Positions 29,820-37,017 of a stretch of 64,000 bases of DNA are shown one piece after another. Where the stretch lies: NCBI GenBank assembly GCA_030248295.1, contig JASANH010000838.1, positions 1,054,001 to 1,118,000 of the forward strand, in the 5' to 3' direction. Source of the DNA: Mesodorylaimus sp. YZB2_4. Its lineage: Eukaryota; Nematoda; Enoplea; Dorylaimida; Dorylaimidae. Within the stretch, counting starts at the first letter, position 1; each line of letters opens with the position of its first letter. A program made the translations under genes and the position numbers. Below the pieces are notes generated by a model that did not search any database, was not told the DNA's origin, and saw only the letters and a program-made list of their open reading frames with translations.

Positions 29820-29861
29820 TAGCAATTCTGTTTGATGCCAGGGCATCAAACAGAATTGCTA
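29820..29861. repeat. perfect inverted repeat, 20-bp arms, at the 5' end of a truncated LINE
   Basis: TAGCAATTCTGTTTGATGCC (29820-29839), AG, then its exact reverse complement (29842-29861). The right arm is LINE coding sequence (encodes HQTELL). The left arm is therefore an inverted snippet of the element, as expected from an inversion during insertion. Confidence 0.9.
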
Positions 29862-30555
29862 ATTCGTAATGCCAGGGCTATGATTGGAACTCTAAGACGA
29901 AAATTTGGACGCCATATCGACCAGAAGACTCTCAAGGCGGTATATACAGCTTGTATTCGTTCAGAACTGGATTATGGGTGTTGTACCTATGATCCCATCC
30001 TGCGAAAAGATATTGATGAACTAGAGAGGACTCAAATCTACGCTATGCGCATTATTGAAAACGACTGGAAGTTGGACTACGATGAAGCACTAGGACGGCA
30101 TGGATGGCCTCGCCTGTCTCATCGTAGGATGCATTTGAAATTAAGTCGATTGTATAAATACTTCCATGAATTTAGTGATCGTCCAAATTTGATACTTGAT
30201 CGGACTGTCGATTCGGGTAGGCGCGTGAGTTCTCGAAAAAATGGACATCATTGCTGCGAAATCAAACATTCATTCTTCGAATCTTACAAACAGTCTTTTT
30301 TATACTCGACACTACAACATTGGAATGCATTGACTGAGGATGTGAATTTTAGTACATTTCTTAAATTCAGGGACAAGATATGCTGTATGAAATTTTAGTG
30401 CTCTTAAACATGACTTTTTTTAAGTCTTGACATTTTTTTTTGACATTTGAAATTGTTTTTGTTTTTTATTATCGTATGTGTCTTTTGATGGCCTGAGTGC
30501 ACAGCTAGTGCTTCGTCAAAAGTAAAGTATCAAGTATCAATCAAGTATATCAAGA
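29842..30555 (+). mobile_element. 5'-truncated non-LTR retrotransposon (3' end of reverse transcriptase ORF plus 3' UTR)
   Basis: The frame to 30398 encodes the end of a non-LTR reverse transcriptase ORF (RNARAMIGTLRRKFGR, LKAVYTACIRSELDYGCCTY, LERTQIYAMRIIEND), typical of the thumb region of Jockey/CR1-like elements. The stop at 30396-30398 is followed by an AT-rich 3' UTR. A stem-forming segment (TTTTGATGGCCTGAGTGCAC ... CTTCGTCAAAA) and a short repeated tail of the AAGTATCAATC type end near 30555. The palm catalytic YADD region is absent, so it is a dead 3' fragment. Confidence 0.8.
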
Positions 30556-30958: not shown

Positions 30959-32230
30959 ATGGATCAGAAACAGTATGGCGCAGCGATGAATGAATTCGCT
31001 TGGCGTTTGTTTTCTCGAGTGGCTGAGCACGATCCTGAAAGGCCTCCAGACACGGGCGCTGGTGCTGCTGCTGTTTTGGTGACGATCGGTGGACTGACGG
31101 CTGCTGCGGGAGAAGCTGGAAAGACGGAAGTGGAAGTGTTGGTCAACAAGGCCAAGATCGACGCCATGGCTCAGGAGCTGATGAAAATGGGGGAGGTTCG
31201 AACGAGCTACAAATGGTTTCCTGGATCGGTGATGGTGGTGCCGAGCGGACGGGCGGTACGATCCGACTTCATCGAACAAATGTCCTCCAAGTAAGTTCTC
31301 TCTTCGTTCCCCTGCCTGCCACCGTGCCAGATTACTGTTTCAGATTTGGAATCGAAGTCCGCACAGGTGACATGAAAGCGCAGGCAGGACGGCAAGTGGT
31401 CGCGTTGATCAACAGCGTCATGGAGGAGAAGTCCGACGGACATACGGAAGAGATGATCACGCCCGATCACGAGGTTCCATCGGACAGGTCTGGTTGCGGC
31501 GCCGTCGTGGCTTCGGCCATTTATTTTCATCCGTGGTGGAACGTGCGGTTCGAGCGCAAGCGGACGACTGAAGCTCCATTCTTCGAGACTCCCGATAGGG
31601 TAAACTGGCACTACCATTATCTGACTTTGTGACTAGGAAATACCATGTTGATTGCAGGAACGTCGCGTCTCGATGATGTACCGCGAAGAAGTGCTGCCCT
31701 ACGTCAAAGGCGAGGTGGCTCCTGGTGTCAAGGTACAAATGGTGGGTCTGGCGTGTCGTCGCAACAGCGGAATGATCTACTTCGTGCTTCCCGCAAAACG
31801 CTTCGGCCTGCGCGAAGTCATTCGAAAAGCGAGCGCCCAAAGTTTGTCTTCATTGATAACGGCGTGCACTCCTCGCAGCGTTCGGCTGTGGTTGCCGAAG
31901 ATCATGTTGTCGGAGACGGTCGAAATCCGTGAGGAAATGGAAAAGTTGGGCCTTCGATCCTGGTTCAAGCCGAGCTTCACCGAGATCATGGACGACAAAG
32001 GAAAGCCGCTGTTCATAAACGAACTGGTTCACCAAGTGGTCGTGCGGTTCAACGAAGATGGTGACATTGCTGAAACTGGGGAAAGCACCATGACTGGTAT
32101 CGACAAGGACGAGCAGCGTTGGATCAAAGTGCGGTGTGATCAGCCGTTCCTGTTCATCTTCCGCCACGACGCCACTGACGCCTTCTGGCTGATTGGAAGT
32201 TCGTCTCGCCCAATCTACCCGCACAAGTGA
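30959..32230 (+). CDS. serpin (clade B-like, no signal peptide)
   Basis: Exons 30959-31290, 31344-31599 and 31658-32230, with 53- and 58-bp introns, give 386 aa, the normal serpin size. Family blocks are AIYFHPWWNVRFERKRTTEA (s3A/hC), GMIYFVLPAKRFGL, VRLWLPKIMLSETVEI (s6A) and the C-terminal CDQPFLFIFRHDATDAFWLI. The reactive-loop hinge reads NEDGDIAETGESTMTG: P14 is acidic and the usual run of small residues is interrupted. Loop insertion would be poor, so it may not inhibit proteases. The N-terminus MDQKQYGAAMNEFAWRLF lacks a signal peptide and suggests a cytosolic protein. The acidic residue near P1 is only a position estimate. Confidence 0.88.
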
Positions 32231-32938
32231 CAAGTGATCTGTGATCGAGTGACCTGCGATTCTGCTCGAATTAGTTTTCGGTAGATGCTCCAGTTTCTGG
32301 TGCATGGTCTCGATCTCGTGCACTAACGTTAGTTCAGTAAACATTCAGTGAGAATGTCGAGTATAGCGGACCATGATTTGCCAGTTTCGTTCGATCGAAC
32401 GCCATCAAAGGTGCGTGCAATAACTGCGAATTCAGCGCCTTGGCTTTCTCTTGAGTCACCGCCGCTGCAACTAAAAGCCATCCAGCGCCGAAGGAGTGGC
32501 TTGAAACCAGAAGCGGGTGGAAAAAACTAGGGCCCCAACCCGACTTGGCAGCCTGCTACTGTCTTCCAGTTTTCTGAGTCAAAACTCTAATTGGATATGG
32601 CGGCGAAAGTCACCAAATGAGGAGATGTAGCGATAGGTAGAGTTGGCAAAATAACCAATATATTCTGTGGACAAACCGCTGCGCACCGTCGGCCATCGTA
32701 AGTGCTCTTTGTCTCACTCACAATCAGAAACTGAATCTGTTAGCTAGAAGCATCATGTTTTCGAAATCTTTAGCTTAACACCTAATTGCTTTGAAACCAT
32801 CCAAAAAGTCTTTTGCTTTCGGAGAAACGAAATCAGCCCATACACCGTTATTTCCGATTTTATGGTGCTCATCGCCAGCACGAAAAGCTGGGCTTCCGGC
32901 CAAGCTCTATTCTATAATAATGCGGCCAGTGTTTCGTA
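32231..32938. other. intergenic, no gene seen
   Basis: No supported ORF or repeat. Confidence 0.3.
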
Positions 32939-33403
32939 ATGACAAGGTGTATTGTGGTCAACTCTCTGATCCGTACCTCCATGGAAACCACGTCGTCCTT
33001 GCAAGAACGTTCGCTTCCTTTTGTGGTAGCTCAACGGGAAAACTCATTTCATACTCTTCTGATAGGGGTCTCAGGGATACCCCATACTCCTCTGATGGAA
33101 ATTCAATCGTCTCAAGAACTCGCGGAGGACAGCCAGATGGATCAGATGTACGCCTGTGAAGATCTCGCAGATAACGTTATTGTTGCCAGCTGGAGAGAGA
33201 CCCTAAATTACGAGATCCCCTGGATTAGAATGCTCTTTCGGGTAGTCTTTGTAATATGCTTCGTAGGGTGCATATTTTTCGTGTACAAAAAATGGCTGGC
33301 GAGCTGGTACAAAGGCGAAGTCAGTGATATGGCAGAAGTGCCCTACCTGCCTTTGCCCAACGTGACCATCTGTGCTCAAGTGTACTTCAATCTTACGAGT
33401 TAG
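32939..33403 (+). pseudogene. DEG/ENaC channel N-terminal fragment
   Basis: ORF of 154 codons. It contains the first transmembrane segment (WIRMLFRVVFVICFVGCIFF) followed by the post-TM1 motif of degenerin/ENaC/ASIC channels (VPYLPLPNVTICAQVYFN, compare PFPAVTIC). The frame stops at once, with no convincing donor. No extracellular Cys-rich domain or TM2 follows before the SINE at 33699. It is either an orphan exon of a broken gene or a first exon whose donor I missed. Confidence 0.6.
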
Positions 33404-33698: not shown

Positions 33699-34119
33699 TC
33701 ACGGTGGTGTAGCGGATCAGCATCCGTCTCTCAATATTGCTTGGGAGCGGGTGGCTGGAGTTGTCCCGGGGTCGATCCCCGGTGATGGAGGTCGGTTTGC
33801 GAACCACAAACCCTCGCTGACCTTGCACGCCAGGCCGCGGGTCTCACCCGGTACCGTCGAGGTGCTTCGAGTGGAGAGACGGAAGCCAAAGGAGGAATCA
33901 GTCTCGGCTGTCGAACACCGCCAGGGTTCACAGCCCGCCCGCCATGGTCCGAGGAAGTCGGCGCCCCGTCCAGGATGTTCTCCGCGGAGGTGCTCCTAGT
34001 GGAGACAGCGCAGAGGGACGCTGCTTTGTGTGATGGTCCTCGCATAGCCCTCCTCATAAGGTTTGACTGCTGCCGGCTAAAGGCAAAACTGGCTATAGCC
34101 CACAAAAAAATTTAAAAAA
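33699..34119 (+). mobile_element. full-length tRNA-derived SINE
   Basis: The 421-bp element has a tRNA-like head with A-box-like GTGTAGCGGATC near 33707 and B-box GGTCGATCCC at 33770-33779. A family-specific body follows, containing GTGGAGAGACGGAAGCC and GGAGGTGCTCCTAGTGGA. It ends in an A-rich tail (CAAAAAAATTTAAAAAA). A 16-bp duplication flanks it. Fragments of the same family occur at 9385, 12740 and 22185 in this window. Confidence 0.82.
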
Positions 34120-34135: not shown

Positions 34136-34377
34136 ATAGCTGTGTACGCCTAACCCTCGGCTACGACGGCTTTTTGGCGACGGCATCCAAAATATGGTTT
34201 AGTTGCACTGCTGTTGATCGGCCTTACAAACAAGCCATACAACGCCACTCTCCGCCCAACTTTTCCCCGACGATAAGTGAAGTAGCACCATACTGGCACT
34301 AAAAGTTATTGTGTATAGGGGATGCCCACGGAGTAAGATGGCAAACTGCAATCGATATGATCACGTTCAGACTCTCC

Positions 34378-34816
34378 TCAGTACGCCATTCGCCCATCTA
34401 CGTTGTAATATCTGTTCTGATGCTCATACATGTTTCCGCGAGAGATGGTCGTCCCTTTACCAAAGCGATAGTAATCACGGTTTGGTCGGACTACTTTGAT
34501 GCCAGAGTTTCGTTTTACCACTTGCGAGGCAGCCACCGAGAGATCTGAAGAGGGGGTCGCAGTCAGACGGCTTCGTATCTATCCCCTGGTCACCTCACCG
34601 TCCTCGTTATCTCCAGGATTCTCCATTTGCTCGGCTATTTTCTGGTGCTCGATCACGGCTGCTGGCAGATCAGAATCGGGTGCTGAAGAGGCAGAGTCGA
34701 ATAAAGTGTCTAAAGAGAGCATCAATCTTACTTGTCTCCTCCACATTGATCTTCGTGGTCAAAGCATGAGTGACCAGGACAAACAATACGACTGTTCCCA
34801 AAATACGCTTGCTCAT
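34378..34816 (-). CDS. candidate RFamide-type neuropeptide precursor
   Basis: Three exons, 34816..34732, 34682..34599 and 34544..34378, with 49- and 54-bp introns. Donors are GTAAGA and GTGAGG, acceptors CTCTTCAG. The phases agree and give 111 aa. Residues 1-21 are a typical signal peptide (MSKRILGTVVLFVLVTHALT). An acidic spacer follows (IAEQMENPGDNEDD). After the dibasic site KR comes NSGIKVVRPNRDYYRFGK, where FG-K predicts cleavage and C-terminal amidation to an ...YYRFamide. A second segment (GTTISRGNMYEHQ, NRYYNVDGRMAY) follows. The size and layout match neuropeptide preprohormones. I cannot assign it to a named family. The risk is that the exons are a chance assembly of short frames. 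Confidence 0.6.
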
Positions 34817-37017
34817 TGTTGACGATTTCGCTTCCCTTAGTCGTCCGTCTTCTGAGCTTACCAAATTTTCTATGACCCAGCCATTCCGATCCTAAAAGTC
34901 AGAGCTAGTTCAGGATTAATCGTTTTCGCCCAATTCAGTACAGTATGGCGAATTATTCACGACGGCTGCTGCCGTATTATGCCTGATCGACCAAGCGGAG
35001 AGAAACGAACTCGATTTTCGTTCCCTTTTTTCTGGCCAGACGGAAACCCATGAATGGCTATGCTTGGCACTTATCAAAATCGAGAGGGCCTAAAGAATTG
35101 GTTTGGTGGAAACATTTTCCCCTGCTCTAGGACGTAATAACTGCAAATAGGCAAGATCTGGTGCATGTGGGCGAACCTACCGTAGTTCGTCGGGTGCATG
35201 CAGCCCGCCCTAGTCCATCCTCTAAAAAAGATGGCTGGTATCAGATAGGAACCGCAATGGTCTGTCTGGTCGTCTCTCTGATTGATGGAAACCTCGTCAA
35301 GGTCTCGATGTCCGTTTTCAAACTCATAATCTGATCCAATCGCATTTGTCTCAGTGACTCCACTCACATTGTTTACACGTCTATCAAAAATCGCCATAGG
35401 CTAGCCATGTTTCACCTGGCCGACACAAATGGGGGTTCTGCACCGGAATGAGTCCAGCAGCTCGCTGTCAAGCACTACGGGTAGATGAACGCCTAGCCAC
35501 TATTAGACTGGCCGCTACACATACAGCACCTACGGTAGGTACTTGTCAACACCACTTTGCAGGCAGGAAATCAAAAGCGGGCGTCCTGTCTTCGCCAACC
35601 CTACCCCGCCCGTTTTTGCTCGAAATTCTTCGATCCCCTGCCGACTGGGCATGTCATTTTTTAACTGCCCTGATACTGTGCATTATGCTCAGCTAATCAC
35701 TCAATATCTGGCGCCTATGACTTGCAAAAGGCAACCCGAAAGTACTGCCTACACGAGGGCCTGATTTGTACTGAGCTGGCTCCTGGCTCTGTAGGTACCG
35801 GTACCTACGCTTCCTTATGTGGGCAGTTTGCAGCATGTGCCACTTTCGTTTCACTGAAATAAATGAACCGTGATTAGTATATTGGTTACCTTGGTTCTGG
35901 TAATTCATTTACTAATCGTCTCATTCCAGCCCGGCTAACAAGCTAACTGGCCATTTGTCTGTCTTGGCCGGGTGCGTCACTTTGATCGCCAGCCATTCCC
36001 CCCCCCCCCCCACATAACCAGGTGTAAGTAAATCTTTACTGCACGCGTCCCACAGGCACACTGTCTCCTATGCCTGGTAGTCAAAGTCGATCTCAGAGAA
36101 GTTCCCTCGAATGACTGACTGACGTCGTGAATCGAGTCTAGCATGTTCTGGTCGGATATTCGACCATGTCACTGTGCGACCAGCCCCTCCCTCTGGCTCA
36201 TCTGCGCACTGTCCCGCACTCATCGTCAAGTCGTGCTCTTCTACATGTCACTTTTGCCAGCCCACTACCTCCTACTCCTAGAAAGTAGAGTCAACAAGGC
36301 AATCTTCACCCCCGCAATAATATTCCGTCTCCGGTGCCACTCTGTTCCAGCTTGCAGCCTGTTTTTTCCACTCGCTTGGCATTGTCCCATGTTTGTCGTG
36401 CCTCTGCGATAGCCAAGCTGCCAAACTAGACCCGATAAGGAGCACCCGTGTTGCCATCGTGCGTCCCTCTTGTCCCATCGCGGCATTTTCCATTGGCCCA
36501 GACGCAGCGGAAATAAGCTCCACGTGGTCTCCACGCTTCCCTTACACTTTTGGCACCCAGTCAAAAATCTTAGTCTCGTTCTGGCGCTCTTCCTTCATGA
36601 TTGACGACATTGTTCGAAAAAAGTGCGTTATTTATCGGCACCTAGCCTCGCCACATCTCACATTTCTCCCCTTCTAAAACCAACACTGCCCAGAGCTATA
36701 ACTCAACTTGCGCCCCCGCTTGCAAGCCAAAGTCCTTAAAGTGCAGCCGCAGTTAATTCACGAATACACCACGCACACTAAAACATGCACGTCACATAGA
36801 AAACACGAAATGCAAATCGGTGACAGTCACCACGATCATACCCATCAACTTCAGGTCAGTGATCACGGGCTAGTCTTATCCTATCATCCTTTGCCTAAAG
36901 TTGAACTAGTAACGCGTCCAAGCACCGATATCTGCAGGTCGACATGCAATTTGCATCACAAGTTCACTCAATACATTACATACCGGGGGGATCAGGGTGA
37001 GACACTCTTCCATAGAA
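34817..37017. other. intergenic, no supported gene
   Basis: A 14-base C run lies at 35998-36011. A short minus-strand frame near 36278-36450 has a hydrophobic start (MATRVLLIGSSLAAWL) but no supporting splice or family signal. Confidence 0.35.

Follow-up and report, generated by a model that had tools for sequence, protein, structure and literature searches.

A spliced gene family in Mesodorylaimus sp. for a likely secreted, KR-processed precursor, with a tentative cationic 43-residue product

The window analysed here is a stretch of 64,000 nucleotides from the Mesodorylaimus sp. YZB2_4 genome (C14:1054001-1118000; the genome comprises 145,146,385 bases in 1067 contigs), and the gene copy within it is referred to as W. 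On the minus strand, three exons (34816-34732, 34682-34599 and 34544-34378) join in phase to encode a 111-aa protein with the order MSKRILGTVVLFVLVTHALTTKINVEETTPDSDLPAAVIEHQKIAEQMENPGDNEDDLSVAASQVVKR-NSGIKVVRPNRDYYRF-GK-GTTISRGNMYEHQNRYYNVDGRMAY. Exon 1, supported by splicing and hydropathy and present as the same exon in both full paralogs (see below), carries the start codon, the signal-peptide-like residues 1-18/21 and the start of the propeptide. Intron 1 (49 nt; 34731-34683, GTAAG..CTTCAG) separates it from exon 2, which encodes acidic propeptide, and intron 2 (54 nt; 34598-34545, GTGAGG..CTTCAG) contains an in-frame stop. Both introns are GT-AG and end in CTCTTCAG. Exon 3, which is supported by splicing and by copies elsewhere in the genome, encodes the end of the propeptide, a KR pair, a C-terminal segment of 43 residues and the stop codon TGA (34380-34378). 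The coordinates of exons and introns, the phase, the splice sites and the 111-aa product are exactly those of the original prediction, which read the gene as a precursor of an amidated, RFamide-like neuropeptide. The FGK codons contain a donor-like GTAAAG (34460) at which an exon might have ended, but this was rejected for the main product, since frame and constraint continue past it.

The N-terminus of the protein is hydrophobic: the 9-residue hydropathy, taken at every third position, peaks at 2.9 over residues 7-15. A von Heijne-type matrix together with hydropathy places the best signal-peptide cut after residue 18 in W and after residue 21 in paralogs A and B, in keeping with the signal peptide and acidic spacer originally proposed; the propeptide has a net charge of -9 in W and -10 in A and B. 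Past KR, the sequence is positively charged (net +5 in W, +8 in A and +9 in B), is free of Cys, has 5-6 Tyr and contains 11.6% (W) to 16.3% (B) Gly. The KR pair itself (a predicted convertase site; residues 67-68, 34510-34515) was correctly called, being identical in the three full copies and kept in four of the five aligned copies that cover the site. It is followed by the proposed RFamide peptide NSGIKVVRPNRDYYRF (residues 69-84, 34462-34509), and DYYRFGK occupies residues 80-86 (34456-34476). The segment had been described as ending in YYRFGK, and this motif is indeed there, but the protein runs 25 residues further (GTTISRGNMYEHQNRYYNVDGRMAY; 34381-34455), a tail that the prediction did not mention. 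Likewise, the cleavage site postulated after RFG does have a basic residue, but a single Lys rather than a dibasic site. The general layout of signal peptide, propeptide, dibasic site with predicted cleavage and short product, which does not define a homology family, is thus present, and the gene likely encodes a secreted, KR-processed precursor.

Several other features lie in the window. A serpin-like gene (30960-32230, by eye) is found beside the candidate, and an exon at 32921-33400 resembles the N-terminal part of the ENaC channel (Pfam ASC, 16.5 bits against a cut-off of 23.6). An ORF on the plus strand (29823-30395) resembles, by eye, the final part of a non-LTR reverse transcriptase, with no Pfam match at E <= 0.01. 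By eye, 33700-34100 includes a tRNA-like stretch containing a B-box-like GGTCGATCCCC; ARAGORN reported no tRNA in the window. As a similar stretch, also judged by eye, is found upstream of a partial copy (locus L005), the element may be a SINE. Dishevelled DIX, PDZ and DEP domains are also encoded in the window. A scan of 34300-35200 for sigma-70 promoters and terminators gave 0 sites, the models being bacterial and of no use for this host. At the level of the genome, the nematode cuticle collagen N-domain (Col_cuticle_N) is matched 133 times; on this ground, and with the Dishevelled domains, a fungal or other non-nematode host was rejected. Exact SL1 was not found, and the arthropod cuticle domain PF00379 had no match, its control being silent as well. 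COX1 gave 15 matches on contigs of nuclear size (C73, C273, C741, C47 and others), many with stops other than TGA. It reads with the invertebrate mitochondrial code, and several copies are broken and numt-like; on C73 a full COX1 copy stands beside an inverted partial one, pointing to numts or mis-assembled mitochondrial DNA.

Searches of the same genome identified at least seven places related to the gene, W included. Two of these are full three-exon copies on contig C65, paralog A on the minus strand (~91.4-92.1 kb) and paralog B on the plus strand (~292.8-293.5 kb), which are 95.8% identical to each other over 2.49 kb. The block that W has in common with the full paralogs (34341-35104, minus strand; 76.6% identity to B over 789 columns) comprises the gene together with ~290 bp upstream, a possible promoter, and ~37 bp downstream. 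A second block on the minus strand (35273-35445), which overlaps a 107-aa ORF (35074-35397), is 70-71% identical to the corresponding place upstream of A and B and could represent upstream regulatory sequence or what is left of an adjacent exon. The remaining members are incomplete: the C78 copy is disrupted by stops and split by ~2 kb, exon-3-only pieces are found on C30 (664 kb) and C371, and C30 has a further, decayed piece at 822 kb with 5 stops. Exons 1 and 2 were not found by tblastn within 8 kb around the C30 664-kb and C371 pieces. A weak match on C129 (33% identity, E 0.098) vanished in a second tblastn and was discarded.

The full copies have introns at the same places with lengths of 49, 51 and 51 nt (intron 1) and 54, 50 and 50 nt (intron 2) in W, A and B, respectively, differences that would break a reading frame. 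In contrast, W and B differ by zero exon indels across 111 codons. Over codons 1-107, dN/dS is 0.30 (W-A), 0.33 (W-B) and 0.09 (A-B, with 4 changes only), and Fisher's exact test on the rounded W-B counts gives p = 1.7e-4 for purifying selection; as A and B are near-identical, the full copies represent only two independent lineages and such constraint tests are weak. Because intron lengths vary while the W-B exons do not, and because dN/dS is well below 1, the gene family is considered genuine: judged by these alignments, W, A and B form a family of protein-coding genes on which purifying selection acts, and the gene in the window is almost certainly real. The notion that the reading rests on chance open frames or a decayed gene finds some footing in the broken family members (C78, the C30 and C371 pieces), but is highly improbable given that the W frame is intact, that purifying selection is seen in comparison with both full paralogs and that these two, in the same genome, keep the three exons and both splice junctions, an arrangement beyond chance.

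The distribution of constraint along the protein bears on what the product is. Between W and B, residues differ at 5 of 16 positions in the proposed peptide, 7 of 25 in the tail, 11 of 48 in the propeptide and 9 of 18 in the signal. With GK included, the core differs at 5/18 positions against 27/93 in the rest (Fisher p = 1), i.e., no excess conservation of the core in this one independent comparison. The W-B dN/dS is 0.60 for residues 69-84 versus 0.28 for residues 87-107 and 0.42 for residues 87-111, all from small counts, and among the five copies that span core and tail alike (the C78 piece does not reach the core), 8/16 columns of the core and 12/19 of the tail (residues 87-105) are invariant. 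By these measures, conservation of the tail equals or exceeds that of the proposed peptide. Within the 43-residue segment the longest runs identical in W and B are DYYRFGKG (identical in A as well), TISRGNMY and NRYYNV, and the longest run overall, the 12-residue NVEETTPDSDLP, falls in the propeptide. The residue following RFG is Lys in four of the six aligned copies and Glu in the other two (RFGEG), both of the latter being exon-3-only pieces and possibly dead. The extreme C-terminus varies, with RMAY in W, RWRY in B and, in A, a frameshifted end (RWVTERV) caused by the loss of one base in the last codons.

Comparisons with known proteins gave little. Searches of Pfam gave no relative, and a sequence search of the PDB returned 2 matches at E <= 10, the best of which (0.62) is taken as chance. 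Pattern searches gave 28 stretches in prokaryotic genomes and 24 in viral contigs, with 0 confirmed relatives in either set; the eukaryotic homology search covered the window's own genome. An AlphaFold model of exon 3 built from six aligned rows has low confidence (mean pLDDT 54.2) and 4 weak strands, at exon-3 peptide residues 24-27, 31-34, 38-41 and 44-47; RF falls within the first of these, a prediction too weak to use. Foldseek with this model against the PDB gave 0 matches at E <= 0.001 and 7 at E <= 10.

Since conservation is even through the whole segment after KR, the charge split is present in all three copies and the Lys that would enable amidation is Glu in two of the six copies, we tentatively favour, at close to even probability, a product that consists of the whole KR-released, Cys-free, cationic 43-residue peptide, secreted and perhaps used for defence. 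In this scenario, the signal peptide (approximately residues 1-18 to 1-21) would direct the prepropeptide into the secretory path, accompanied by the acidic propeptide (net -9 to -10), which may neutralise the charge of the product. A Kex2/furin-type convertase would then cut at KR67-68 and release the full C-terminal segment, rich in Tyr, Arg and Gly and with a net charge of +5 to +9, as the putative active product. Outside the cell the 43-residue peptide might act in defence or signalling. Counting against such a product are the absence of any W-B DNA change over the 7 codons of DYYRFGK, the two independent lineages to which the comparison amounts, the possibility that the Glu copies are dead, the variable C-terminal end, the low-confidence structural model and the lack of fit to the nematode antimicrobial groups tested here.

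The nematode antimicrobial groups described in the accessible text of PMC10506718 (cecropin, CS-alpha-beta, nemapore, diapausin and glycine-rich) resemble the candidate in having a signal peptide, a cationic product and several copies per genome. Unlike CS-alpha-beta, nemapore and diapausin peptides, it lacks their conserved Cys motif, with no Cys after KR in W, A or B. Its Gly content is below the 17% minimum of the glycine-rich secreted peptides, for which the same text gives 17-74% Gly in the mature form, and cecropins are there said to be restricted to ascarids.

The most serious rival is a new RFamide precursor, in which KR together with the single Lys would release NSGIKVVRPNRDYYRFG(K), a carboxypeptidase would trim the Lys, the Gly would be amidated and DYYRF-amide would act on a neuropeptide receptor, the tail being perhaps a second peptide. 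Several features fit. The host belongs to a phylum rich in FLPs, and the candidate shares with nematode FLP precursors the signal peptide, acidic spacer, upstream KR, short length and an aromatic-x-RFG followed by a basic residue; it has one RFG, as in several flp genes, and the accessible text of PMC11658156 describes several flp genes that each code for just one peptide. The 111-aa precursor and 16-aa peptide are within the C. elegans ranges of 66-184 aa and 5-24 aa reported in the main text of PMC4196577, and a single Lys flanks 16 of the 184 basic-flanked C. elegans cases in Table 2 of that paper and is thus permitted, if uncommon. The strict identity of DYYRFGKG in W, A and B also speaks for it. 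The candidate differs from those precursors in lacking a dibasic site after RFG, in its conserved 25-residue tail and in a core that is not its best conserved part, and the Glu after RFG in the two partial copies is a further argument against this reading. Nor do the consensus motifs for flp-25 (-[DASNT]YD[YF][VI]RFa) and flp-10 (..Y[IL]RFa), as given in the main text of PMC4058706, fit the candidate. YYRF is absent from the main texts of PMC4196577 and PMC4058706, YYR is absent from that of PMC8764417, and no mention of (D)YYRF-amide peptides was found in the open-access literature searched.

The Pfam FARP profile aligns RPNRDYYRFGK in exon 3 of the window (E 0.28), at 12.2 bits against a cut-off of 15.5, and is silent both on paralog B and on the complete W protein (for the latter at E <= 1); with 11 positions, this model is a weak test of membership. 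A genome-wide search with the profile gave no match, and with its control also silent it is uninformative.

A control from within the genome is provided by two flp-14-like genes, L029 (C25:547260) and L030 (C393:23438), which were found as the two places matching a back-translated KHEYLRFG pattern (reversed control, 0). K[HN]EYLRFG occurs twice in the first and three times in the second, with KR between the copies, and the last copy ends in FGK-stop. Across two KR-linked peptides the pair is identical at 21/21 residues, 8 of which are built in by the pattern (it required neither the neighbouring KNEYLRFGK nor the KR sites), compared with 5/16 in the adjacent spacer and 24/54 in the first exon. 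The candidate has RFGK in common with these genes, which carry VVKR or VNKR before their first peptide. It is unlike them in that they have two to three KR-linked peptide copies, and the N-terminal parts are without evident likeness. Hence, the flp-14-like genes display the peptide-centred conservation and dibasic spacing that the candidate does not, a contrast that is no more than suggestive, since these two genes seem older than the W-B split and were picked out through their peptide.

Taken together, the evidence leans slightly against RFamide identity, yet a monobasic-processed RFamide still is a serious rival, which we regard as possible though doubtful. Of the amidated-peptide layout originally proposed, the spliced gene for a secreted prepropeptide of the convertase type stands, while the amidated YYRF product is unsupported, in view of the conserved tail, the lack of core excess, the RFGE copies and the FARP score below cut-off. 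As conservation is not centred on the peptide and the profile match falls short, the gene is not filed as an FLP, though it may still work like one.

In a further reading, one precursor could give rise both to an RFamide (...DYYRF-amide) and to the conserved 25-residue tail peptide, or to an uncut 43-residue peptide that carries both; the RFGE copies would then have lost amidation, as a switch between amidated and non-amidated forms, in a nematode family not described before. We consider this unlikely. Also unlikely is that the protein is secreted but yields no small active peptide by cleavage, being for example a cuticle, gland or seminal component, with KR incidental or serving propeptide removal only. 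The spread of constraint over the full length and the position of NVEETTPDSDLP in the propeptide agree with such a protein, but none of the three full copies has lost KR, which divides strongly acidic from basic halves.

Whatever its product, the gene would belong to a known kind, the secreted prepropeptide. Short spliced precursors like this one are invisible as a single ORF. If the favoured cationic secreted peptide is the product, a Cys-free group would be added to the nematode peptides, among which a survey of antimicrobial peptides expects undiscovered groups (accessible text of PMC10506718). If it is an RFamide gene, its ligand would lie outside the flp motifs checked; the accessible text of the pan-phylum FLP survey calls for more clade 1-5 genomes (PMC11658156). 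In either case, RFGK by itself is no sufficient sign of a neuropeptide where the sequence beyond it is equally conserved.
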